In this document: piece after piece, positions 25,158-43,777 of the stretch
Layout of the letters: every line of letters starts with the position of its first letter
How positions within the stretch are numbered: the stretch's first letter is position 1
NCBI RefSeq assembly: GCF_007750855.1
Contig: NZ_CP036291.1
Coordinates: 1-64,000, forward strand
Direction of reading: 5' to 3'
Origin: Pirellulimonas nuda
GTDB taxonomy: Bacteria > Planctomycetota > Planctomycetia > Pirellulales > Lacipirellulaceae
DNA length: 64,000 nt
Program-made: the position numbers and the translations under genes
The notes under the pieces: model-generated
Database searches by the model: none
What the model saw: only the letters and a program-made list of their open reading frames with translations
What the model was told of the DNA's origin: nothing

Positions 25158-25175
25158 CTCCCGCTCAGGCGGGAG
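25158..25175. terminator. Hairpin at the end of the minus-strand PD-(D/E)XK-like gene
   Basis: CTCCCGC and GCGGGAG form a perfect 7-bp stem around a TCAG loop. The stem includes part of the TGA stop of the minus-strand gene. It sits between convergent genes and may act as a two-way terminator, without a T tract. Confidence 0.45.
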
Positions 25176-26859
25176 CCTGTGCTTCGCGGAGGATCACGAG
25201 TTGGGCGCGGAGCAACACCACCTGGCGTTCGAGCGCTTCTTGATCGATCCGCACCCGCTCGAGGATCGTCTCACTGGAAGAGCGGATGGTCTCGGCCGGC
25301 TTGCGCACCTTGTCGAGGCCGGCGCTGCGTTTCTCGATCTCGTTGATCGCCTTCTCGATAGCGTCGAAGTCCGCGGCCTGGGTCTCCTGCGAGCGCCCGA
25401 CGCGGATCGAGAGCGCCCGGGCGATGTCGAGGCCGGCGCGCAGGTACACGTCGGTCGTTGGGTCTTCTGCGTCCCACAGCACGACTACGTCCTGCCCGTA
25501 CCGCCGCACGGGGGCGAGCGTCGCGGGCGCACACCGCTTGGAGAACACGAACAACCCAAACCCTGCGCCGCGGTTCTTGCGGGCTTCGGCTAGTTCTTCG
25601 CACGCGCGCAGCAGCGTGTACCCTGATTCCTGCTTGGCTTCTACGACCAGCTTCGCCCCGGGCGCGGCGCTCTCGTGGCCGAGCTCAACGATGCAGTCCC
25701 CCTTCTTGCAGTTCTTGATCAGCCCCGTAGAGGCGCCGGTGGCGGCAGCGACGTCGCCGGAGTGCTGTGCCTCGCGGGCGATGAACTCGAAGACGGCCTC
25801 CTCGAACGTGGCGCCGTGCTGCGTGCCGCGTTCTGCCTCGACGCGCTTGGCGACCATCGCGGCGAGCGAAACCTTCACATTCTCCTGGAAATCGCGGTTG
25901 CGTTTGTCGGCCTGTTCGAGCAGTCCCGACAACTCGCGCCGCAGCCGCGCCAGCGGCGACGCTTCGTCGTCCAGCGTCAGGTTGCCGTGGATGGCGCCTT
26001 GGGTGGCTTCGAGCATCTGCTTGAGCCGCGACAGGGCGGACGCGTCGTTGTCTAGCGAGAACTCACTGCTAATCGTCCGCTGGGCCCGATCGACGTTCGA
26101 CACCAACCGGCTGAGCGCTGAGTCTTCTTTGTCGAGCGAGAACTCGGCCACCACGTCGTCGATCTTCTGCTTGAGGTCGCGGCTGAGGTCGCCGTGTTTG
26201 CAGGTCAGCTCCCCCACCAGGCGGCTCAGGGCGCCCTCTTTGTTGTCGAGGGAGAACTCCCGCAGCACGCTCTCGCGCTGCTTGACCAGCTCGCCATCCA
26301 CCACGGCGCGGAGCGAAGCGACCACCCCCTGGGCCTGCTGCGGATCGAGCAGCCGCATCAACGGGCTGCCGGCGCCGATGCGGGCGTCGAGCGTGCGGCC
26401 TAGCTGCGAGCCTTCCCCCCCCAGGTGGCTCTTGAGCAGCGTGGCGAGCTCGCCGTCGTCGCTGACCAGCCGGCCGACGCGCTCGGCCAGGCGCCCGCTC
26501 TGCGGGTCGAAGTAGTCCTTGAGGACGGCGCTCGTCTTCTCGTGCGACTGCTGGGCGTTCTGGTCGAACAGCTTCTGCAGCTCGCCCACGAGCCTGGCGC
26601 CTTCGTCGCGGACGCTCTGGGCGTCGATACGACCCTGGGCGTGCCGCAATGCCAGCACGCCGATCCGCAGGGCGTCGAGGGCATAGTCGTGCCGGGCCCG
26701 CCCCGAAGGCCGTTCCGAGAGGGCCTCGATCACGTCGCGGTCGCGGACCATCAGCTCGAGAGCAAGAGACGCCGGTAGCTCCCCCGGATGGTTCTCGAGC
26801 GTGGTCTCATCGTCGATCGCTTCGTCTTCCATCCCAAACCAAGCACTGGGCGCAGTCAC
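25165..26859 (-). CDS. Coiled-coil protein with SLD-type repeats and PD-(D/E)XK-like nuclease site
   Basis: This 564-residue protein is of unknown function. Residues about 200-307 contain four copies of a 15-residue repeat (EFSLDNKEGALSRLV at 201, 239, 266 and a divergent copy at 293), spaced 38, 27 and 27. Then FEEAVFEFI (352-360), GDCIVELG with Asp388, and LVVEAKQ with Glu407 and Lys409 give a D-x18-ExK pattern typical of restriction-like nuclease folds. The C-terminus is coiled coil. The GTG start at 26859 is supported by an RBS. It is probably co-transcribed behind the 1371-residue gene (109-bp gap). A DNA-cleaving or DNA-binding role is inferred. Confidence 0.75.
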   Translation of the reverse strand: MTAPSAWFGMEDEAIDDETTLENHPGELPASLALELMVRDRDVIEALSERPSGRARHDYALDALRIGVLALRHAQGRIDAQSVRDEGARLVGELQKLFDQNAQQSHEKTSAVLKDYFDPQSGRLAERVGRLVSDDGELATLLKSHLGGEGSQLGRTLDARIGAGSPLMRLLDPQQAQGVVASLRAVVDGELVKQRESVLREFSLDNKEGALSRLVGELTCKHGDLSRDLKQKIDDVVAEFSLDKEDSALSRLVSNVDRAQRTISSEFSLDNDASALSRLKQMLEATQGAIHGNLTLDDEASPLARLRRELSGLLEQADKRNRDFQENVKVSLAAMVAKRVEAERGTQHGATFEEAVFEFIAREAQHSGDVAAATGASTGLIKNCKKGDCIVELGHESAAPGAKLVVEAKQESGYTLLRACEELAEARKNRGAGFGLFVFSKRCAPATLAPVRRYGQDVVVLWDAEDPTTDVYLRAGLDIARALSIRVGRSQETQAADFDAIEKAINEIEKRSAGLDKVRKPAETIRSSSETILERVRIDQEALERQVVLLRAQLVILREAQAPA

Positions 26860-26865
26860 GGCGGT

Positions 26866-26870
26866 CTCCT
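26866..26870 (-). promoter_or_regulatory. RBS supporting a GTG start
   Basis: AGGAG on the minus strand lies six bases before the GTG at 26859. It favours this start over longer in-frame readings that run into the preceding gene. Confidence 0.55.
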
Positions 26871-26968
26871 TACGCGCGGGTGGTGTACGGATGTGAGTAT
26901 CGCGGGTGACGCCGCGCGAGGCAAGCGGCCCGCAAAGTCCGCCGCATAGGGAGCCGCTGCTTGGGCCC

Positions 26969-29900
26969 CTACTTCTTCTTCCGATCCCCCGGCCGCCCCG
27001 GGAGCAGCGGGGTTGATTCGGAGAGCTGCTGCTGGATCTGCGGCCAGGTGAGCTCGCGTTGGGGCGTGTGCGCCAGGGCGTCTTCCCCCTGACCGGGGTG
27101 CCGGAGTCGGACCCGGGTCTCGGTGATCTCGTTCTCGAGGGCGCCGATCCAGTCGGGGGCGTCGAGCCCGGCGCCGCTGGGTTGGACGCTGAGGTTATCG
27201 ATCTCGGCCGCGACCTCGACGAACTGGGCGGAGGTCTCGTCGGCCCCCGCGGCGGCGGCGGTGATGGCCGGCTCGACCAGGGCCTGCAGGCGGTCGATGG
27301 TGAGCGGGCGGACGAACCTTTCCGCCAAGCGCTCCGCCACGGTCGGCAACCGCATGCCGTAGTGTTGCGAGAGCGACTCCAGCTCCCCCAGACGTGCGTC
27401 GGCCTCGCCGGCGGTCCGCTGCTCAACGGCGGCGCGCCACAGCTCCGCCGCGGCGAGCCTGCCGCTGCGCACCAGGATGCGGTGGGCGAGGTAAACCGGC
27501 TTCAGGTTCCAGGCCACGCGGTCGTAGCTGGTGCGGAGCCGCAAGAAATCGATCAGCACGTACAGCAGCTCGCCGTGATCGCTTTGGGTGGTGGTTGTGT
27601 TGTAGTCGCGGTACTCACGGTAGTTTTCTACAACCGCCTCGATGGCGATGGTGAGCCACTGGGCCGCGATTTCGTGATCCACCTTCCCGGCTTGCAGGTC
27701 GTCCAGCAGCCGGAACGACGTGTCTTCTTCCTCCAACAGCCCGGTGAGCCACACGTCGGCGGTGCGGTGGAGGATCCCCCGTAGGTTGCCGAGGGTGAGG
27801 AACGACTGGTCGAACAAGTCGCCGCCGTAGCGTTCGATAAACTCGACGAACCTGCGCCAAGTCTCCGGGTCGCTCAGCTTCTCAACGACGCTCAGCCGCA
27901 CGGTGCGGCTGTGCCGGAGCCAGCGGCCAAGCTGACTCTCGGTAAGGTCCTGCAGGGCTTGGACCAGCAGGGAGTCCGAGGCGCGTGCGTCTGGCCGAGC
28001 GGCCAGCTCTGCCGGCGCGGCCCCGTCGTCCCACGAATCGGCCGAGGCGACCAGGCACCGCACGACCGCCTCGTAGCCGTTCTCGAACAGCCGATCGTAT
28101 TCCGTGACGGCCCCGGGGCCGACGGGGTGGTCGATCTCCATCCGCTGGGCGACGTCCAGCAACTGGCAAGTCTCGCGCACCAGTCCCAGCCGCGGCAGCC
28201 AGCCCAGCAGGTCGTGGATGAGTTGGTGGAGGGCGCGGGCCTTGACGATCCGCCTGGGGTCGCCCCCTTTGCTCAGCGGGATGTAGAGCAGTTCCTCGGC
28301 CAGCAACGACGCGCAGAATTCCGGCCAATGCTTGCGGATCAACGCGTCGTCTCCGGTCAGCACGCCGCGGAGCACCTCGATGGTCCGCCCCAGGCTGCTG
28401 GTCGATTCGGCCTCGGGCTGGGACCCCGAGGCGGCGCGCAGCAGCCGGCCGGCGTCCGATAGCTCGACGCAGGTCACGATCACCTGTTCCAGGATCCCGT
28501 CGCGGAGCACGCGTCGCCGGTCGTACTCGATCAGCTCCTCGTTGCCGCCGCGGGGCGGCGCCAGGCGGTGGGCGTGCACGGCGTCGAGCAGCCGGCAGAG
28601 CTGCGTGTAATGGCGCGTCGCTTGGTGCTGCCAGCCTTCGAACGCTGCGCGGCGTTCGGAAGCGTCCGAGTGGGCGGCGTCGAAGGTGCCCCAGGAGATC
28701 GCGGTCTGCTTCCAGAGGGCCGCGGTCGTGCGGATGAACCCGAGCCGTTGCTCGAGGCGGTCCGATTCCGCCTCAAACGCCAGCCGGGTGTCGTCCTGCC
28801 CGGCGTCGAAGATCGACGAGTCCATGCCGTCATCGGTGCTGTCCTCGTAGGTCACGCCCTCGTAGGCGGCGCCGAAGAGGTTGTCGAGCTCGTCGTCCTC
28901 GTCATTCTCGAACTGGTCGTCGTGCGGATCGAAGTCTTCCTGGGAAAGGAACTCCAGGTCGGAATCTCCCTCGAACGCGTCGTCGAAGTCATCGTCCGCG
29001 TCGTCCTCGAGCAGGTCGTCCAGTGCTTCGTCGTCTTCGCTCCAAACGGTCTCGCCGAGCTCGAAGGCGGGGACCTGCCAGTACTCGTCTGCGCTCGCTT
29101 CTAGGTGGGCGAAGAACTTCTCGACGGTCGGCCACATCGGTTCGTGGGTTTCTCTTTCTCGGGCGTCCACCATCTGCAGCCAGCGCTGGGCGAGCGCGTC
29201 GAACGAGGCGTCGCCGTCCTCCAGCGGGGTGAAGTCGACCTGGCTGAGCCATTGCATGGCGAGCGCCATCGAGGCGACCAAGTCTCCCTTGTCGAGCAAC
29301 GCCTCGATCACCAACTGGAACGCTTTGGGAGAGTCGAACTGGTCGACAAACATCCGCCAGAAGCCGATGTCGCCGGCCGCGGCGCCCGCCTTGTGCCAAG
29401 CGTTCAGGGCGCCGGCGACCAGGTTCGAAGAGATCTCAATCTCTTTCGCGACCAGCCTGGGGACGCCGCTGACCGTGCTTGTGGCGTAGCGGTCCCACCA
29501 GTCGGACACCCGCGCCAGGGCCGCAGAGAACGTCTTCTCGTGGGCGTCGTCGTCGATCGCGGCCGCCTCGGTCCAGGCGCGTGCGCACAGGTCGAGGAGC
29601 TGCTCGACCAGCCGCACCAGCTCGTCGACCCGGTAGTCGTGAACGGAGTTCTCGATAGCCGGGAACAGGCTGAAGGCGCCGCCAAACCCCACCACGCTCC
29701 ACGGGTCGACCAACGCTCCGCACTCGATTCCGCGGTGGAGCAGGTCTTCGATCTCGGGGAGCCGGGCGGCCACAACGTCCAGCTTGTGCCCGTCGAGCGC
29801 CCGGTGGCCCTCGGTGAGTCGGCAGTAGATCTGCGCGAGCATGCGCGCGGAGGCGACCCGGACCGCGCGGGCCTGCCGCTGGGCCGCTTCGGTGTACCCC

Positions 29901-31084
29901 ATCCTGGCGTAGAGCTGGGCCAAGCGGACGCGTTGCATCTGATCGGCGCGGCGGCGAGCAAGCTCCTGGTTGAGGTGCTGCCGAGCCCCGGCGAGCGGCT
30001 GACGCAGACGCTTGGCCTCCGCGCGGAGCCTCTCGCCGTGCGGCCCCTTGGCGTCCGCAAGCAGTTGTTGGTAGAAGCGGTCGCGGTACCCGGCGATGTG
30101 GGGGAGCAGCGTCGCGAGGGTCACCTCGCTGTTGTGCCGGCCGGGCCCATCGCCACAGGTCCCTGAGGCCATCAACATCGTGCCCGCGAGCACGGCGCCC
30201 GCTTCAAAAAGCAGCTCGTCTCTTGTGAAGCTGCCGCCGGCGCGGGCGCCGGCGGCATCGTCCACGCGCGCCAGCAGTGCGTCGAGCGCGATCGGCTGCA
30301 CCACGAACCGGCGGTAGAAGCCGCGGTTGTCGATGAAGTTGGGGTCCCACTGGCCAAAGTGGTAGTTGGGGCGCTTGCCGGCCGGGTGATCGAAGTCGTA
30401 GGCGCGGGGGTCGAGGGCCAGCTCCTGCAGCAGGTCGATGTCGAACCACGCGTCCCGCAGCAGGTCGGGGTCGGCGTGACGCAAGATGCCGAGCGTGATC
30501 TCGATGAGCTGTTGGTACTCCCCGCTCGCGACGCCGGCCGACTCGATGTAGAGCGGGATCGGCCGGACCCACTCGTGCCGGTAGGGCTCGATCCGTTGCT
30601 CCGTTTCGAGCACCGGGAGTGGGCGGTAGCCGATGTAGTCGTCTAGCGAGTCGCGGGCGCCCGCGACGATGCGATGGGTCTCGTCCCAGGGGGGGCCCTG
30701 GGCGAGGATCGCCTCGGCGACGCGACCCCAGAAGAATGGGCGCCACAACTCGCGTGGCTTTCGGCTCCACAGCAGGTCTTGATGAAACTGCCGATAAGCC
30801 GGGCGGAAGTGGTGCTCAAGAAGGTCCGCGACCACGCGGGCCTGCGAAAGGTCGCTGAAGGCGCCCCCTTCCGGTTGGAGCTGATCCATCCGCTCTCGCA
30901 GCCATTGGCCCAGCACGAGCACGGGGTCGGCGTCTGGATCCGCCGATTCGATCTGGGAGTAGATCAGGCTGACGTTCTTAAGAAACTTCCCGTCCTCGGC
31001 GCCGGCGGAAAAGTTCAGGTAGCCGACGACCTCCTGCAAGGCTTGCTGCGGTCGGGCGTGCTGTTTGGGCAGATGCTCGGTCAT
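26969..31084 (-). CDS. Giant conserved-type protein of unknown function (1371 aa)
   Basis: I do not recognise a domain. The protein is soluble, mostly helical, without signal peptide or membrane segment. Residues about 680-760 are an extremely acidic, probably disordered block (for example DDLLEDDADDDFDDAF). Helical repeat-like regions flank it (RRADQMQRVRLAQLYARMGY; TRHYTQLCRLLDAVHAH). The tail is basic (RPGDRKKK). The start MTEHLPKQ at 31084 was chosen. The PD-(D/E)XK-like gene follows on the same strand after 109 bp, suggesting an operon. A large scaffold or TPR-like assembly protein is possible. Confidence 0.75.
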   Translation of the reverse strand: MTEHLPKQHARPQQALQEVVGYLNFSAGAEDGKFLKNVSLIYSQIESADPDADPVLVLGQWLRERMDQLQPEGGAFSDLSQARVVADLLEHHFRPAYRQFHQDLLWSRKPRELWRPFFWGRVAEAILAQGPPWDETHRIVAGARDSLDDYIGYRPLPVLETEQRIEPYRHEWVRPIPLYIESAGVASGEYQQLIEITLGILRHADPDLLRDAWFDIDLLQELALDPRAYDFDHPAGKRPNYHFGQWDPNFIDNRGFYRRFVVQPIALDALLARVDDAAGARAGGSFTRDELLFEAGAVLAGTMLMASGTCGDGPGRHNSEVTLATLLPHIAGYRDRFYQQLLADAKGPHGERLRAEAKRLRQPLAGARQHLNQELARRRADQMQRVRLAQLYARMGYTEAAQRQARAVRVASARMLAQIYCRLTEGHRALDGHKLDVVAARLPEIEDLLHRGIECGALVDPWSVVGFGGAFSLFPAIENSVHDYRVDELVRLVEQLLDLCARAWTEAAAIDDDAHEKTFSAALARVSDWWDRYATSTVSGVPRLVAKEIEISSNLVAGALNAWHKAGAAAGDIGFWRMFVDQFDSPKAFQLVIEALLDKGDLVASMALAMQWLSQVDFTPLEDGDASFDALAQRWLQMVDARERETHEPMWPTVEKFFAHLEASADEYWQVPAFELGETVWSEDDEALDDLLEDDADDDFDDAFEGDSDLEFLSQEDFDPHDDQFENDEDDELDNLFGAAYEGVTYEDSTDDGMDSSIFDAGQDDTRLAFEAESDRLEQRLGFIRTTAALWKQTAISWGTFDAAHSDASERRAAFEGWQHQATRHYTQLCRLLDAVHAHRLAPPRGGNEELIEYDRRRVLRDGILEQVIVTCVELSDAGRLLRAASGSQPEAESTSSLGRTIEVLRGVLTGDDALIRKHWPEFCASLLAEELLYIPLSKGGDPRRIVKARALHQLIHDLLGWLPRLGLVRETCQLLDVAQRMEIDHPVGPGAVTEYDRLFENGYEAVVRCLVASADSWDDGAAPAELAARPDARASDSLLVQALQDLTESQLGRWLRHSRTVRLSVVEKLSDPETWRRFVEFIERYGGDLFDQSFLTLGNLRGILHRTADVWLTGLLEEEDTSFRLLDDLQAGKVDHEIAAQWLTIAIEAVVENYREYRDYNTTTTQSDHGELLYVLIDFLRLRTSYDRVAWNLKPVYLAHRILVRSGRLAAAELWRAAVEQRTAGEADARLGELESLSQHYGMRLPTVAERLAERFVRPLTIDRLQALVEPAITAAAAGADETSAQFVEVAAEIDNLSVQPSGAGLDAPDWIGALENEITETRVRLRHPGQGEDALAHTPQRELTWPQIQQQLSESTPLLPGRPGDRKKK

Positions 31085-31240: not shown

Positions 31241-33358
31241 TCAGAGCGCGTCCGCTGTGGCCGGAGCGGCACAACGACCACGAGCCTTCCGGCGCCGGAG
31301 GATCGCGCCGCTTGCGATGACGAGCCAGATCGCCGCGGCGCCCGCTGGTTCGGGAACGGCGGATGGCGTCGCGATTGCCCCAAAGGCCGGACCCGGCTGG
31401 CCGTAGTGGTCCTTCCAAACCTGGTAGTCGTCTGGACCGACGGCCCCGGCCAACCCGGCGCCTCGGTTGGGGAGCGCAAACGCGGCTCCGAGGTTGTCGC
31501 GCCACACGGTGTAGTCCGCGGCATCGACGAAGCCGTCTGCGTTGTAGTCGCCGGGCGTTCCAACGGAAAGCGAGCCGAGCTGAACGTAGCCCTCAACGCG
31601 CGTGCCGTCCGCTAGGTCGTAGCTGAACGTCAGGTCGTCTCGCGGATCGGCCGGAGCGCTGGAGTTGCTGAAGTCCCAGATAGCGCCGAGCAGACCGCCG
31701 ATGTTGGAACCGGCGGTTGTGGCGTATGGCCCGGCGACGTGCGCCTCGGCGAGCGCGAACGCGTTCGATCCCCCGGCCTTGTCCCACCCCGGGCCGGCGT
31801 CCCCGACCCCTTGGCTGTCGAGGCTGTTCCAGGCGGCGGGGAGCAGCAGGCCGGCCGCACTCTCGATTTGCACAAAGTCGATCTGGAAGTTGCTGCTCGA
31901 GCCCCCCTTGAGTTGGGCCAGCCCGTTGGTTGGATCAACCACCAACGTCACTAATTCTTCCAGCGGCTGCGCATCGAGTCGGACCAAGTCGAAATAGACG
32001 CGCTGGTTGTCTGCGCCGCTATTTCGGGTGAAGAGGACGAGGTCGCCCGTCGGCGCCGATTCGCTGGTCTCGAACTTGAACCGGGTGACGCTCGGGTCGG
32101 TCACGCCGGCGACGTCCACAAAAGTTCCGACGGGCACAATCGTGCCCGCGGACGTCTGCACGTCGATGAACCCGGGCGTCCCGAGCGACGTTTGGGTCTG
32201 CGCCGATTGATTGCCGTTCTGGACGGGGTCGGTATCGATCGGCTCTCCGGACCAGAGGCCGTAATCGAGCGAACCTGTGAAGCTGGAACGGTGGCCGACA
32301 AGCAGGTCGATCGTATAGCGCGTACTCGGCGCAAACGAAAGGGCGGACGTAGAAGTCAAGTTGATGTAGCTGTAGCCGGGGCCGACGTTTGCCCCTGATG
32401 CGTTGTTATTGATGTACCGAGAACGGTTGCCCTCTTGGCCTGTCATGTCTCCCGAGCGGTCTTCCGTGAAGGAGGTATAAGCAGTCCAGGAGCCGGCCGT
32501 AGCGCTCCCGGTGTTCCAGTTTTCTGTAAAGACCACGACCGCCGAGGCGGGAGCAGCGGCCCCGGACAACACGCCGATCGCCAGGCACACCGACAGCCTC
32601 CCCAAGCGGCGAGTCATCCACGCCATCGCCGCCAGCAGGCCCAGCGCGATCGCGCCAGCGGATGGCTCTGGCACGGCCAACCCCGCGAGGCCGGCCTCGA
32701 ACGTGCCGACGCCGGGCTGGCTTTCGTAGGCGTTCTTGAACAATCGGAAGTCGAGGCGGTCGATCAGCCCGTCCGCGTTGATGTCGCCGCGCAGGTACCT
32801 GCCCGCCTTGTTGAACCCAGCGACGTCCTTCAGCAGGTTGTCCCGAACCACGGGCCAGTCGATCGTGAGATCGACAACGCCGTCCGCATTGAAATCGCCG
32901 GGAATGAGGGTTCCCGTATACGCCACCGGTACGTCGACCGCGGCGCCGCTGACGAGTTGGATCGTCATAGAGACGTCTTCAAACGGCGTCGGAACCCAGG
33001 GGTCCCCGAGGTCGAGCGAAAAGCCGTTTCCCACCACAAGGCTGCCCAGCAGGGTGGCCTCGGTCAGTTCATCGGTCGCCGACGGCGCGGAAAGCTCTAT
33101 CCACACGTCGTTTGCGTCTACCGAGCCGCCACTGTCAAAGTCGCCCGTCTCGGCAATCGAACGCCAACGGATGGGGGCGAACTGACCGTCTGCGCTGCGG
33201 ATCTCGTAGAACTGCGTGTCGTACGCGGTTCCCGATTGGTTGCTAAACAGCAACGTGCCGGCCAGCCGGTCGATGCTCAGCGAGAGCGCGGATGCGTCGC
33301 TTGCCGGCAGAAGTAGGAGCGCGGCGCACGAAGCGACCGACAAGAAGCACCTCGTCAA
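31241..33358 (-). CDS. Tandem (fused) PEP-CTERM proteins with dockerin-like repeats
   Basis: The single 705-residue frame holds two complete exported units. Unit 1 has a signal peptide, a beta-rich body, dockerin-like GDFNADGVVDL and GDINADGLIDR loops (154-200), and a PEP-CTERM tail with VPEP at about 229 and a basic end. Unit 2 starts with a second signal-like segment (LSVCLAIGVLSGAAAPASA, about 255-273), which begins where the first tail ends. It continues with a beta-rich body, GDYNADGFVDAADY, and a final VPEP plus hydrophobic and RRRK tail. An internal ATG at 32617 could start unit 2 alone. The main start is TTG (MTRCFLS). Both units should be exported and cell-surface sorted. Confidence 0.8.
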   Translation of the reverse strand: MTRCFLSVASCAALLLLPASDASALSLSIDRLAGTLLFSNQSGTAYDTQFYEIRSADGQFAPIRWRSIAETGDFDSGGSVDANDVWIELSAPSATDELTEATLLGSLVVGNGFSLDLGDPWVPTPFEDVSMTIQLVSGAAVDVPVAYTGTLIPGDFNADGVVDLTIDWPVVRDNLLKDVAGFNKAGRYLRGDINADGLIDRLDFRLFKNAYESQPGVGTFEAGLAGLAVPEPSAGAIALGLLAAMAWMTRRLGRLSVCLAIGVLSGAAAPASAVVVFTENWNTGSATAGSWTAYTSFTEDRSGDMTGQEGNRSRYINNNASGANVGPGYSYINLTSTSALSFAPSTRYTIDLLVGHRSSFTGSLDYGLWSGEPIDTDPVQNGNQSAQTQTSLGTPGFIDVQTSAGTIVPVGTFVDVAGVTDPSVTRFKFETSESAPTGDLVLFTRNSGADNQRVYFDLVRLDAQPLEELVTLVVDPTNGLAQLKGGSSSNFQIDFVQIESAAGLLLPAAWNSLDSQGVGDAGPGWDKAGGSNAFALAEAHVAGPYATTAGSNIGGLLGAIWDFSNSSAPADPRDDLTFSYDLADGTRVEGYVQLGSLSVGTPGDYNADGFVDAADYTVWRDNLGAAFALPNRGAGLAGAVGPDDYQVWKDHYGQPGPAFGAIATPSAVPEPAGAAAIWLVIASGAILRRRKARGRCAAPATADAL

Positions 33359-39295: not shown

Positions 39296-40351
39296 TTAAC
39301 CCTTCTTCGCTACGTTCACGTTCTGCTTCTCGTACGGCTGCGTGATGCAGATCGCCTTGCGCCCCTTGAAGGCGCCGGGGGAGGCCTCGAACTTCGGCCG
39401 GCCCTCCACCACCACCAGCAGCGGCGACTTGCAGTCCTTCTCCGTGTCGATGATGTCTCCCACCCGCAGGCCGATCAGGTCGTGCGTGCTGATATTGGTG
39501 CGGGCCAGCTCTACCACCATCTCGACCGCGGCGCTGCCGATCCGGTTGCCCAGCTGCTGCACCGCCTCGGCGGAGGCGGGCTTCTTGCCGTAGCTGACCC
39601 AACTGTTGGCGCTAAGCTTGGCGCCGATCCGCTCGATCGTGTTGAACGGCAGGCACAGGTTCATCATGCCCCGAACCGCGCCGATCGCCAGCTCGAAGCT
39701 CACCAGCACCACCACTTCGTTCGGCGGCACGATCTGCACGAGCTGGGGGTTGCTCTCCACTCGGTCGATCGCCAGTTCGAGCTCGATCACGTTCTTCCAG
39801 GCCGAACGCATCTCGGAGAGGAACAAGTTCGTGATCCGCGAGACCAGCCGCAGCTCGATCTCTGTCAGCGGCCGGCGGGCGGCGCTGGCCACGGTCGACC
39901 CGCCCCCCAGCATGCGGTCGATGATGGGGAACAGCAGCGACGGGTTGATGTCGAGGATCAACTGCCCCTCCAGCGGCGGCGCGTTGATCAGGTTAAAGCA
40001 GGTCGGGTTCTCTAGGCTGAACACAAACTCGCTGTAAGTGAGCTGATCGACGCTGGTCAGCTTCACCTCGACAATGTTCCGCAGCAGCGACGAGAGCGCC
40101 GCGCCAAAGTTGCGGCCGAACCCCTCGTGCATCGTCTGCAGGGCCCGCATCTGCTCCTTGCCGACGCGCTCGGGGCGCTTGAAGTCGTACGGCGTGACCT
40201 TCTCTCGCGGCCGGCCCCCATCGTGCCGCGCGTCCGGCCGGGCGCCCGCACTCGGCGCCGACGCGCCGGCCTGCGCGCCCGCCGCCGCGGCCCCACCCCC
40301 CATCGTCGCCATCAGGCTCTCGACTTCGGCTTGGCTCAGGACATCGCCCAT
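39296..40351 (-). CDS. fliM: Flagellar motor switch protein FliM
   Basis: The 351-residue protein begins MGDVLSQAEVESLM, the conserved FliM N-terminal motif (LSQxEIDxLL) used for CheY binding. The CheC-like middle domain (RALQTMHEGFGRNFGAALSSLLR; LNLVENPTCF-like region; GRMLGG-type IIDRMLGGG) and the C-terminal SpoA/FliN-like domain (LLVVVEGRPKFEASPG) follow. An Ala/Gly-rich linker lies at residues 18-40. FliM forms the C-ring switch. No other flagellar gene is in the window, so it is an orphan here. Confidence 0.93.
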   Translation of the reverse strand: MGDVLSQAEVESLMATMGGGAAAAGAQAGASAPSAGARPDARHDGGRPREKVTPYDFKRPERVGKEQMRALQTMHEGFGRNFGAALSSLLRNIVEVKLTSVDQLTYSEFVFSLENPTCFNLINAPPLEGQLILDINPSLLFPIIDRMLGGGSTVASAARRPLTEIELRLVSRITNLFLSEMRSAWKNVIELELAIDRVESNPQLVQIVPPNEVVVLVSFELAIGAVRGMMNLCLPFNTIERIGAKLSANSWVSYGKKPASAEAVQQLGNRIGSAAVEMVVELARTNISTHDLIGLRVGDIIDTEKDCKSPLLVVVEGRPKFEASPGAFKGRKAICITQPYEKQNVNVAKKG

Positions 40352-40443
40352 GGTGCATTCCGTTGCTGGTGAGAGAAGACAGAAGTAAGACGACAGACGC
40401 GAGCGGCGGAACTCGTCCGCTCTCAACGCCGACCGGCGAACCC

Positions 40444-41742
40444 CTATCCTCGAATCTGTCCGCTTCCGTGGACCACGTACTTGTAACTCGTTAGCTCCGT
40501 CACGCCGCACGGGCCGCGGGCGTGGAACTTGTCGGTGCTGATACCGATCTCCGCCCCCAGGCCGAACTCGCCGCCGTCGTTGAACCGCGTGCTGGCGTTC
40601 ACCACCACCGCGGCGCTGTCTACCCGCTGCGTGAACCGCTGGGCCGCGGCCAGGTCGCGGGTGACGATCGCGTCGGTGTGGTGCGAGCCGTAACGGTTGA
40701 TGTGCGCGATCGCCTCGTCGAGCGAACCAACAACCACCGCCGAGATGACCGGTCCCAGGTACTCCGCGCCCAGGTCCTCGTCGGTGGCCTCTGCCGCGCC
40801 GTCCACCAGCTCGCACACCCGCGCGTCGCCGCGGACCTCGATGTTGTTCTTGCCGAGCGCCCGGCCGATCCGCGGCGCCAGCTCGGCGGCGCAGTCGGCG
40901 TGGAAGATCAGCGACTCCGCCGCGTTGCACACCCCCAGCCGGTGGCACTTGCTGTTCACCACCACGCGCTCGGCCACCTCGGGGTCGGCCGACGCGTCGA
41001 GGTACACGTGGCAGTTGCCGTCGTAGTGCTTGATGACCGGCATGCGCGCCTCGGCCGCGACGCGGCGGATCAGCCCCTCGCCGCCGCGCGGGATCGCCAC
41101 GTCGATCAGCTCGCTCAATTTCAGCAGCTCGCCCACCGCCGCGCGGTCGGTTGTTGAGACCAGTTGCACCGCGTCCTCGGGCAGCCCGTGCTCGGCCGCG
41201 GCTTGGCCCAGCAGCTCGACAATCGCCCGGCTGGAGTGGGCCGCCTCCTTGCCGCCGCGCAGGATCACGGCGCTCCCCGCTTTGACGCAGATCGCCGCCG
41301 CGTCGGCCGTGACGTTGGGCCGCGACTCGTAGATAAACAGCACCACCCCCAGCGGCACGCGGACCTTGTCGATCCGCAGCCCGTTGGGCCGCACGGTGCT
41401 GGCGATCACCTCGCCGATCGGCTCCGACTGCCCGGCGACCGCCTCGAGCGACGCGGCGATCGACTCGATCCGCTCCGGGGTTAACCGCAAGCGGTCGACC
41501 GCGGCTTCGGTCAGCCCGAACCCGGGCGCCGCGTCGAGGTCGAGCTGATTGGCCTCGATCAGCCCCGCCTGCTCGCCGCGCAGCAGCGCCGCCGAGCCTC
41601 GTAGCCAAGCGTTCTTCGTCGCGCCGCTGAGCGAGGCGAGTTCGACCGAGGCGGCGCGGGCGCGGCGGGCGACGTCGAGGCAGTAGTCCGACAGGTCCGC
41701 GGCCAGCGGGGCGTCGGCGGGAGTTTGGGTTTGGGTGCGCAT
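40444..41742 (-). CDS. proA: Gamma-glutamyl phosphate reductase
   Basis: This NADPH-dependent enzyme converts gamma-glutamyl phosphate to glutamate semialdehyde in proline synthesis. The 432-residue length is normal. Features: VPLGVVLFIYESRPNVTADA, KAGSAVILRGGKEA, IPRGGEGLIRRV, VIKHYDGNCHVYLD, the catalytic Cys in HRLGVCNAAESLI, and GGEFGLGAEIGISTDK near the C-terminus. proB is not in the window. The start at 41742 (MRTQTQTPAD) fits the family. Confidence 0.95.
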   Translation of the reverse strand: MRTQTQTPADAPLAADLSDYCLDVARRARAASVELASLSGATKNAWLRGSAALLRGEQAGLIEANQLDLDAAPGFGLTEAAVDRLRLTPERIESIAASLEAVAGQSEPIGEVIASTVRPNGLRIDKVRVPLGVVLFIYESRPNVTADAAAICVKAGSAVILRGGKEAAHSSRAIVELLGQAAAEHGLPEDAVQLVSTTDRAAVGELLKLSELIDVAIPRGGEGLIRRVAAEARMPVIKHYDGNCHVYLDASADPEVAERVVVNSKCHRLGVCNAAESLIFHADCAAELAPRIGRALGKNNIEVRGDARVCELVDGAAEATDEDLGAEYLGPVISAVVVGSLDEAIAHINRYGSHHTDAIVTRDLAAAQRFTQRVDSAAVVVNASTRFNDGGEFGLGAEIGISTDKFHARGPCGVTELTSYKYVVHGSGQIRG

Positions 41743-41881
41743 AAGAATCCAGTATCGACGACAAGTCCGCCGCGGGCAACGCCGATCGGCGGGCGCCAGC
41801 ACGCCCCCGCGCGGGCTTCTCGCGGAACCGGGCGGCGGGCGTGGGGTTTAGGGAGTAACCCCGTGTCCCTCCGCACCCCAG

Positions 41882-43777
41882 ATGACCGCCGGCTTCAGAA
41901 TGCTGCATCACGCTCGCTTCGTTCCCCTTTTGCTCCTGATCGCTTCGCTTGCTGCACCGACAGTAGCCCAGCCACCTGGGGCCCAGCCACCTGGGGCCCA
42001 ACCCCCGGAGGCTCCTTTCCCAGGCGGCGGAGGACCGGGCGGCCCTGGAGGTCCCGGCGGGCCGATGGGGGGACCGAAGATCGAGCTCGTTAAAGAGTTC
42101 GACGCCAACGGCGACGGCTGGCTCAACCAGCAAGAACGCGCCGCCGCCCGCAAGGCGCTCGCCGAACGGCCCCAGGGGCGTGGCCGCGGCTTTGGCGGCC
42201 CCGGTGGCGGACCGGGCGGACGGCGCGGCGGACCCCCGGGGGGGCCTGGCGGCCGCGGCAACCGCGAACCCGGCAAGCCGGGCCCGCACGTTAAGCCCAG
42301 CGAAGTCGCCGCGTACCCAGACGCCCCCCTGTACGACCCCAGCGTGCTCCGCACGCTGTTCTTCGAGTTCGAGTCGGACGACTGGGAAGAAGAGATGGCC
42401 CAGTTCAAGCCGACCGACGTCGAGGTGCCGGCCACGCTCACCGTTGACGGCAAGACCTACCCCAACGTCGGCGTCTCTTTCCGCGGCGCGTCTTCGTTCA
42501 TGATGGTCCCCAGCGGCTCGAAGCGGTCGCTGAACGTGTCGCTCGACCTCGCCGACGACACCCAACGTATCGACGGCTACAAGACCCTCAACCTGCTCAA
42601 CAGCAACGGCGACCCGTCGATGATGAGCACCGTGCTCTACTCCGATATGGCCCGCCAGCACATCCCCGCCCCCAAGGCCAACCTGGTCCGCGTGGTGATC
42701 AACGGCGAGTGCTGGGGCGTGTACGTCAACGTGCAGCAGTTCGACAAGGTGTTCACCAAGGAGAACTTCGGCGACTCGCAGGGGACGCGTTGGAAGGTCC
42801 CCGGCAGGCCCGGCGGCGACGCGGGGCTGCGGTACGTCGGGGACGACATCGAGGCGTACAAGTCGACCTACGAGATGAAGTCGAGCGACGGCGACAAGGC
42901 CTGGAAGGCGCTCGTTGAGCTCTGCCGGGTGCTCCACGAGACCCCCGACGACCAGCTCGAACAAGCCCTCAAGCCGATCCTCGACGTCGACGGCGCGTTG
43001 TGGTTCTTGGCGTACGACGTAGCGCTGGTCAACAGCGACGGGTACTGGACCCGCGCCAGCGACTACAGCTTGTTCCGCGACAAAGACGGCGTGTTTCACG
43101 TGATCCCCCATGATATGAACGAAGCCCTCCGCGCCGGCCACGGCGGCCCTCCCGGACGCGGTGGCCCCGGTGGTCCCGGCGGTCCCGGCGGCCCGGGCGG
43201 CTTCGGGCCCCCGGACGGCGGCGGTCCTCCCCCCGGACCCTTCGGCGACGCGTTCGGCCCCCCTCGCGATGACCGCCGCCAAGGGCGCGGCGATCGCGGC
43301 GCGGGTGGCGGCGGGCGTGGCGGTGGCGGTGGTGGTGGCGGCGGGACCGACCTCGATCCGCTGGTCGGCCTCGACAACGCTCGCACCCCGCTGCGTAGCC
43401 GGCTGCTGGCCGTGCCACATCTGCGCGAGCGGTACCTCGACCACCTCCGCCAGATCGCCCGCGAGCAGCTCGACTGGGAGCAGCTCGGTCCGAAAGTGGC
43501 CGCGCACCGCGCGTTGATCGAGTCGGCGGTCGCCGAGGACACCCGCAAGCTCTCCTCCACCGAAGCGTTCCTGGCGTCGACCTCCCCCGACGCGCCGGCG
43601 CCGGCCGCCGCAGGCCCGGCCCCCGCGGGGGCAGAGCGGGGCGCCCCAGCCCCAGACGCCGACGCGTCGCTACGCGGCTTCGCCGAGAAGCGCGGCAAGT
43701 TCTTGCTACAGCACCAAGCCCCCAAGCCGTCCGCCCCCTCCACCCAGGCCGGCAACCCCCGTCGTCCGCCGGGGTAA
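41882..43777 (+). CDS. Secreted CotH kinase-like protein with collagen-like inserts
   Basis: The 631-residue protein has a signal peptide (LLLLIASLAAPTVAQ). A Gly/Pro-rich tract and an EF-hand-like DANGDGWLNQQE (about 75-86) follow. The CotH domain (VGVSFRGASSFMMVPSGSKRSLNV, DGYKTLNLLNSN, VVINGECWGVYVNVQQFDKVF) leads to the kinase-like Asp and DMNEAL region. The CotH fold is interrupted at about 415-500 by a Gly-rich GGPGG tract before ARTPLRSRLLAVP. The C-terminus is Ala/Pro-rich. CotH proteins phosphorylate surface or spore-coat proteins in other bacteria; here the target is unknown. An alternative ATG is at 41900. Confidence 0.85.
   Translation: MTAGFRMLHHARFVPLLLLIASLAAPTVAQPPGAQPPGAQPPEAPFPGGGGPGGPGGPGGPMGGPKIELVKEFDANGDGWLNQQERAAARKALAERPQGRGRGFGGPGGGPGGRRGGPPGGPGGRGNREPGKPGPHVKPSEVAAYPDAPLYDPSVLRTLFFEFESDDWEEEMAQFKPTDVEVPATLTVDGKTYPNVGVSFRGASSFMMVPSGSKRSLNVSLDLADDTQRIDGYKTLNLLNSNGDPSMMSTVLYSDMARQHIPAPKANLVRVVINGECWGVYVNVQQFDKVFTKENFGDSQGTRWKVPGRPGGDAGLRYVGDDIEAYKSTYEMKSSDGDKAWKALVELCRVLHETPDDQLEQALKPILDVDGALWFLAYDVALVNSDGYWTRASDYSLFRDKDGVFHVIPHDMNEALRAGHGGPPGRGGPGGPGGPGGPGGFGPPDGGGPPPGPFGDAFGPPRDDRRQGRGDRGAGGGGRGGGGGGGGGTDLDPLVGLDNARTPLRSRLLAVPHLRERYLDHLRQIAREQLDWEQLGPKVAAHRALIESAVAEDTRKLSSTEAFLASTSPDAPAPAAAGPAPAGAERGAPAPDADASLRGFAEKRGKFLLQHQAPKPSAPSTQAGNPRRPPG

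Follow-up and report, generated by a model that had tools for sequence, protein, structure and literature searches.

According to an excerpt of PMC1189080, RmuC (PF02646) is built of a membrane helix, a coiled coil, a McrC-like PD-(D/E)XK nuclease core and a second coiled coil, and RmuC domains can also act in defence, as reported for Shield in part of PMC10270631. Mrr (PF04471), McrC and DUF2130 (PF09903) provide further terms of comparison for the locus described here, which comprises two consecutive minus-strand genes, P1 and P2, in a stretch of 64,000 nucleotides (hereafter the window) forming positions 1 to 64,000 of contig NZ_CP036291.1 of Pirellulimonas nuda, a planctomycete of the order Pirellulales (hereafter the order) whose family, f1 in our sampling, is tied to Lacipirellulaceae by a row of the tree. 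P1 is a large core protein of this lineage and P2 a predicted PD-(D/E)XK protein flanked by long helices. The new observation is that the place after P1, held by P2 in the window, is taken by a genuine RmuC in three genomes, each of a different family, and by a DUF2130 protein in one. We propose, tentatively and with slightly less than even confidence, that P2 is a soluble RmuC-like genome-maintenance nuclease and P1 a scaffold sometimes encoded with such nucleases. The features of the locus are the following.

26969 to 31084, minus strand: P1, a giant helical protein of 1371 aa (ATG at 31084, stop at 26969), from the translation.
30299 to 30412, minus strand: P1 residues 225-262, the most conserved stretch, within the N-terminal module, from the alignment of 90 sequences.
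28832 to 29068, minus strand: P1 residues 673-751, predicted acidic disordered linker joining two helical halves, from the model and the alignment.
26860 to 26968: intergenic gap of 109 bp between the P1 stop and the likely P2 start, from the sequence.
25165 to 26859, minus strand: P2, predicted coiled-coil PD-(D/E)XK nuclease-type protein of 564 aa with a likely GTG start at 26859.
25900 to 26259, minus strand: P2 EFSLD repeat region, residues 201-320, helical, from the alignment and the model.
25465 to 25818, minus strand: predicted P2 PD-(D/E)XK core, residues 348-465, from the model (structural matches cover 348-491).
25633 to 25698, minus strand: P2 motif D388...E407-x-K409, from the alignment (33 of 33).
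25180 to 25461, minus strand: predicted long C-terminal helices of P2, residues 467-560, likely coiled coil, from the model.

RmuC was found above the cut-off in 28 of the 246 genomes drawn from the order, and the window's own genome gave no RmuC match. Neighbouring genes were called throughout by a longest-open-frame rule rather than by a gene finder. P1 is followed directly, on its own strand, by a Pfam-confirmed RmuC gene in G354 (family f12), G426 (f16) and G427 (f18), the likely start lying about 30 bp past the P1 stop in G426. In a further genome of f18 (G435), the next same-strand gene encodes a DUF2130 protein, noticed by eye among 17 P1 loci. None of these four genomes has a P2 match. 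Family f12 shows both arrangements, three of its genomes having P2 no more than 1.5 kb from P1 and a fourth having RmuC there. Assuming about 4,500 genes per genome, chance would make RmuC the next same-strand gene 0.003-0.006 times over the 28 RmuC genomes, against 3 cases seen, which possibly derive from one ancestral event; P1 places were listed for part of these genomes.

The assignment of P2 to the PD-(D/E)XK superfamily is supported by both its motif and its predicted core fold. The triad D388, E407 and K409 stands where the original prediction had placed it and is invariant in 33 of 33 relatives. In the model, the core follows the order helix, three strands, helix, strands, with 10-residue means of the predicted local distance difference test (pLDDT) of 82-93 over residues 351-480; the model as a whole is weaker (mean pLDDT 70.1, predicted template modelling score (pTM) 0.33). 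Its structural matches belong mostly to the PD-(D/E)XK superfamily, led by McrC (Z 9.8, root-mean-square deviation 3.0 over 119 residues) and including PaqCI, Can1/Can2 and Bax1 among the best, with moderate Z scores of 8-10. These proteins share the predicted fold of P2 residues 348-491, whereas their identity to P2 is 10-21% (top 19 rows) and their accessory domains are different. Foldseek gave no match at E 0.001 or better (best E 6.6e-3). The assignment therefore combines the fold, the invariant triad and the consistent list of matches, the Foldseek and Z values being moderate, and it bears out the expectation that structure prediction would return a nuclease fold. Nuclease activity and a DNA substrate would follow from this assignment. 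Long helices on both sides of the core in the model would fit the coiled coils also announced for P2, so that the predicted order of coiled coil, core nearest to McrC and coiled coil is that of RmuC. Three of the four EFSLD repeats claimed are clear (residues 201, 239 and 266); the fourth is a degenerate NLTLD at residue 293, present in 11 of the 33 aligned relatives.

Similarity to the other families is more partial. DUF2130, which we take to have a PD-(D/E)XK fold, shares with P2 a long charged helical N-terminus and, by eye, a G-D...E-x-K pattern. Residues 401-466 of the window protein (P0002) match the Mrr catalytic domain (Mrr_cat, PF04471) weakly, at E 0.024 and 15.2 bits against a curated cut-off of 21, and 3 of the 33 P2 relatives match it at E up to 0.01. 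P2 differs from Mrr by this score under the cut-off, by its long helical arms and by the lack of a restriction partner nearby in the window. P2 appears soluble, its best 19-residue hydropathy value of 0.97 indicating no membrane helix, and only one of the 33 relatives exceeds 1.6; the seven RmuC rows reach 1.57-2.98, the lowest of them, L308, being shortened by the chosen start codon.

P1 was correctly described as a soluble protein of 1371 residues with an acidic block, since the frame exists and its most hydrophobic 19-residue stretch (Kyte-Doolittle mean 1.38) falls short of a typical membrane helix. It is considered a real protein, beyond chance, because hundreds of genomes conserve most of its length. 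P1 is present in 58 of 59 relatives, in 243 of the 246 genomes of the order (all 184 of the good ones), in 110 of 148 genomes drawn from the class and in 16 of 246 drawn from the phylum, all 16 of the same class. Among the 38 genomes of the class draw lacking it, the 20 listed all belong to a single family (f105), presumably Gemmataceae. P1 is usually single copy, G524 being an exception with two full-length places, and it behaves as a vertical core gene. It is also a large unannotated protein outside the searched family libraries: Pfam, NCBIfam, PADLOC and PHROGs yield no family even at E 1, and the Protein Data Bank (PDB) yields nothing significant by single sequence or by profile, its best sequence matches (serine-tRNA ligase, E 0.44 and up) being taken as chance. 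No description of P1 or of the P1-P2 pair was found in the abstracts and passages covered by a literature search, in agreement with the original statement that no such system was known.

The AlphaFold2 model of P1 residues 1-1200 (mean pLDDT 88.3, pTM 0.83) predicts a mostly helical giant solenoid, with an N-terminal module holding a few strands and a disordered acidic linker. Its PDB matches are general helical-repeat scaffolds with low template modelling scores (TM-scores), residues 1-394 being barely tested in this search. Karyopherins, SKI3, IFT-A (intraflagellar transport complex A) and nucleoporins share the stacked-helix arrangement of the P1 model, with 8 Foldseek matches at E 0.001 or better, but the TM-scores of these 8 are below 0.2, Z reaches at most 12.2 and no sequence match exists. 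These matches are not evidence of kinship because this Z range is what the tool gives for common helical arrangements, and a relationship with karyopherins, SKI3 or IFT-A was set aside as generic helical-repeat similarity. Planctomycete membrane-coat-like proteins are described, in an excerpt of PMC2799638, as large helical-repeat proteins with an N-terminal beta-propeller; P1 was rejected as one of them since the model of residues 1-1200 shows no propeller, only scattered short strands.

Conservation of P1 is concentrated outside the acidic block. Across 90 sequences there are 29 invariant columns, of which 21, many of them charged, fall within the first 600 residues (including E221, D230, R238, D247, R259, R334, R368, N372, D483 and R485), and T1165, S1168, D1169, G1171 and R1189 form a second invariant group. 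Stretch 225-262 contains invariant D230, P234, R238, G244, D247 and R259, and its block 226-250 has the highest conservation. The acidic block itself (residues 673-738, 48% D/E and zero K/R) belongs to a linker of 15-81 residues and 13-59% D/E across the 90 relatives, and pLDDT falls below 50 across most of residues 680-761 of the model. As its length and composition vary so widely, the block was rejected as a functional motif.

Whether the two genes form a unit was read from the 52 of 56 P2-bearing genomes of the order in which the places of both could be compared (G422, G429 and G456, with no P1 place listed, and G423, with no P1 match, were omitted). P2 lies downstream of P1, on the same strand and within 1.5 kb, in 19 of the 52, belonging to four families (f1 14, f3 1, f4 1, f12 3), and Lacipirellula and Bythopirellula are among those with adjoining genes; the two-gene unit of the original prediction holds in these genomes and fails in the remaining checkable ones, where P2 is 2.4-10 kb from P1 (5 of 52), far away on the same contig (6 of 52) or on another contig (22 of 52). 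Some of these 22 cases are at contig ends, so adjacency is possibly undercounted. In all 24 genomes having P2 within 12 kb of P1 on one contig, P2 is downstream and on the same strand, no other orientation being seen. Independent occurrence, which was to count against the pair, is observed: in the order the majority of P1-bearing genomes lack a P2 match, and 18 of the 22 P2-bearing genomes of the phylum draw have no P1 match, against 4 that do, a few of the 18 being weak matches. An obligate P1-P2 pair was rejected on this distribution. A link between P1 and a nuclease remains plausible from the adjacency in four families and from RmuC and DUF2130 in the same place elsewhere.

The same loci can be read with no functional link at all, P1 being an unrelated core protein beside which P2, RmuC and DUF2130 stand through inherited gene order and coincidence, an explanation to which we give not quite an even chance; plain inherited gene order is as likely as a P1-nuclease link. 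It accounts for the occurrence of each gene without the other. Moreover, about 11 loci of the window's family share the same two further genes behind the P1-P2 block, so plain synteny can hold P2 in place, and whole sub-clades keep P2 away from P1 without losing it. The spacing of the matched stretches, 114-397 bp in 16 of the 19 adjacent pairs and 854-1209 bp in three, is not that of a tight operon. Three coiled-coil families in the same place and on the same strand in several families, together with the short distance between P1 and RmuC in G426, argue against it. A quick tree of P2 (Shimodaira-Hasegawa-like approximate likelihood ratio support only, long branches flagged) follows the groups of f1. 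One sub-clade, and also the sister group of the window's lineage, has P2 apart from P1, and P2 may thus have left an ancestral position next to P1.

Several observations weigh against P2 as an RmuC-like nuclease and P1 as its occasional scaffold. P2 lacks the membrane helix of RmuC and any profile similarity to it, whereas it carries the EFSLD repeats: no RmuC Pfam match was obtained for P2 at E up to 1 or for its 33 relatives at E up to 0.01, and the hhalign probability is 0.3%. For DUF2130 there is likewise no Pfam match, and hhalign against one DUF2130 protein gives 0.2%. Direct homology of P2 with RmuC or DUF2130 is thus undetectable by profile comparison, and the place after P1 therefore seems filled by different families. 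P2 is distant from P1 or on a different contig in 28 of the 52 genomes, and RmuC is beside P1 in just 3 of the 28 RmuC genomes. Prompted by the layout of P2, RmuC had been searched for its co-occurrence with P2, and its adjacency to P1 was noticed afterwards, not as a pre-stated test. Both P2 and RmuC are above cut-off in 3 genomes versus about 6 expected, so they are not clearly exclusive, and strict exclusion was discarded as a firm result. Neighbours drawn from P2, RmuC and DUF2130 amount to 23 identified cases among 243 P1 genomes (P2 and RmuC counted by coordinates where listed, DUF2130 only as noticed by eye), and most P1 genes have no such neighbour. Fifty proteins encoded directly after P1 were prepared and 40 scanned, four of these being the RmuC and DUF2130 cases; the 36 others, picked by hand, comprise 30 with a Pfam family, none of them RmuC or DUF2130, and 6 without a family. 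Finally, 20 P1 loci from other families of the class have no widely common neighbour, only close pairs sharing some.

The families identified in these 30 proteins are mostly metabolic, signalling or transport families, with one each of a GmrSD-type restriction domain, ScpA, DnaX and Thy1. The GmrSD N-terminal restriction domain is carried by the gene after P1 in G012 (genus g13; L011:3-1157), where P2 is away from P1. In six loci of genus g38 of family f15 (L122, L181-L185), P1 is directly followed, on the same strand, by a gene that starts out like the condensin subunit ScpA, an identity confirmed by Pfam in L122, the only one of the six scanned. RmuC is found in 3 of the 148 genomes of the class draw, and in the only one outside the order (G377) it is on another contig than P1.

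Returning to the proposal of an RmuC-like P2 and a P1 scaffold, the steps could be envisaged as follows. P1 would be a cytosolic scaffold of helical-solenoid type, inherited vertically, whose N-terminal module is conserved and which serves a core function in this planctomycete class. Some lineages encode an exchangeable RmuC-type nuclease (P2, RmuC or DUF2130) shortly downstream of it, and the gene order suggests that the nuclease may act on or with the scaffold. The long helices of P2 would place a metal-dependent nuclease core onto DNA structures that are probably intermediates of recombination or repair. The predicted fold and the invariant triad of P2, the core status and helical model of P1, the adjacency and the three coiled-coil families in one place are observed; from them we infer that P2 plays an RmuC-like role and that the nuclease is linked, physically or functionally, to P1. 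On the best reading P2 would act as RmuC does while lying outside the RmuC family. More specifically, P1 could be a chromosome-maintenance scaffold particular to this planctomycete lineage that accepts coiled-coil PD-(D/E)XK nucleases (P2, RmuC, DUF2130) interchangeably, an idea we hold to be rather doubtful.

P2 has a much patchier distribution than P1. Of 59 relatives 36 carry it, and it turns up in 56 of the 246 order genomes, in 21 of the 148 from the class draw and in 22 of the 246 from the phylum draw; it is an accessory gene, found without P1 in other classes. Around P2, in 36 loci mostly away from P1, no neighbour family is common to more than 3 loci. Two loci harbour divergent P2 paralogues: in G056 (L241:6042-13265) the paralogue lies between a sigma-54 activator with a weak RtcR-type N-terminus and HsdR and HsdM genes, and in G294 (L218:4952-10589) it is beside a sigma-54 activator and an HsdS-AAA fusion, the P2 match holding a stop. 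These may each be a regulated restriction locus with an extra nuclease. Distant relatives of P2 are encoded by seven archaeal plasmids, one of them annotated 'restriction endonuclease' and located beside a methyltransferase and a helicase. On a Haloferax lucentense plasmid (L214), the distant relative is beside an AAA ATPase, a VWA protein, a metallo-hydrolase and a helicase, a possible defence cluster. No P2 match was found in phages, only these seven distant archaeal plasmid relatives, and P2 as a phage gene was rejected.

These neighbourhoods bear on the view that the locus is a defence or restriction machine in which P1 detects or binds foreign DNA for cleavage by P2, a view we regard as very unlikely. 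The fold of P2 is common to restriction enzymes, divergent paralogues stand beside type I restriction genes in G056 and G294, and the annotated archaeal plasmid relative, the GmrSD domain after P1 in G012 and the RmuC domains of Shield (as excerpted from PMC10270631) all agree with it. Against it, P1 is in every good genome of the order, unlike most defence genes, neither P1 nor P2 matches a PADLOC family (none for either at E up to 1), phages gave no P2 match, and a pattern scan of viral contigs confirmed no relative of P1 or P2 among its candidates. No DNA methyltransferase or defence gene was seen among the inspected window neighbours, part of the window genes being scanned. A restriction machine fits poorly because P1 is a core gene; the restriction-like half of the function first suggested for the pair is thus poorly supported, and its DNA-processing half is reasonable through the nuclease call. 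Since RmuC domains can act in defence, P2 alone may have such a role.

A different partner for P1 is suggested by a gene for a pyrroloquinoline quinone (PQQ)-type beta-propeller, which is divergent and upstream of P1 in the loci displayed (e.g. L068:6067-7515) and is commoner beside P1 (44 of 80 loci) than P2 is (14 of 79). P1 could then be an enzyme or an envelope-linked scaffold unrelated to DNA, the nuclease being incidental. Such a role would agree with the clustering of invariant, often charged P1 columns within the first 600 residues, which recalls a binding or active site. We consider it unlikely, given that the window lacks the propeller gene beside P1, a dockerin-containing gene (31241-33358) occupying that place, and that outside the order the propeller gene is in only 1 of 20 P1 loci, there on the same strand. 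Divergent order moreover gives no co-transcription, and P1 has no typical membrane helix.

The scanned neighbours in the window comprise an AAA ATPase, a DUF4404 protein, a dockerin-type protein and a thiamine pyrophosphate (TPP) enzyme, together with an RsmE-like rRNA methyltransferase recognized by eye. Further along, the window holds a mechanical minus-strand frame of 1403 aa (39299-43507) that matches FliM only at its C-terminal end; the remainder is overlapped by a plus-strand CotH-domain gene (41882-43774), and the long frame looks like a chance extension.

P1 adds a large unannotated core protein to the known content of a bacterial class with unusual cell biology, in which, according to part of PMC10632474, 151 of the 748 essential coding sequences of Planctopirus limnophila are of unknown function. 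If functional, the repeated pairing of P1 with RmuC-type nucleases would make the roles of both testable. Should P1 indeed be a chromosome-maintenance scaffold for interchangeable nucleases, RmuC-type enzymes, still poorly defined in their cellular role, would gain a partner of their own.

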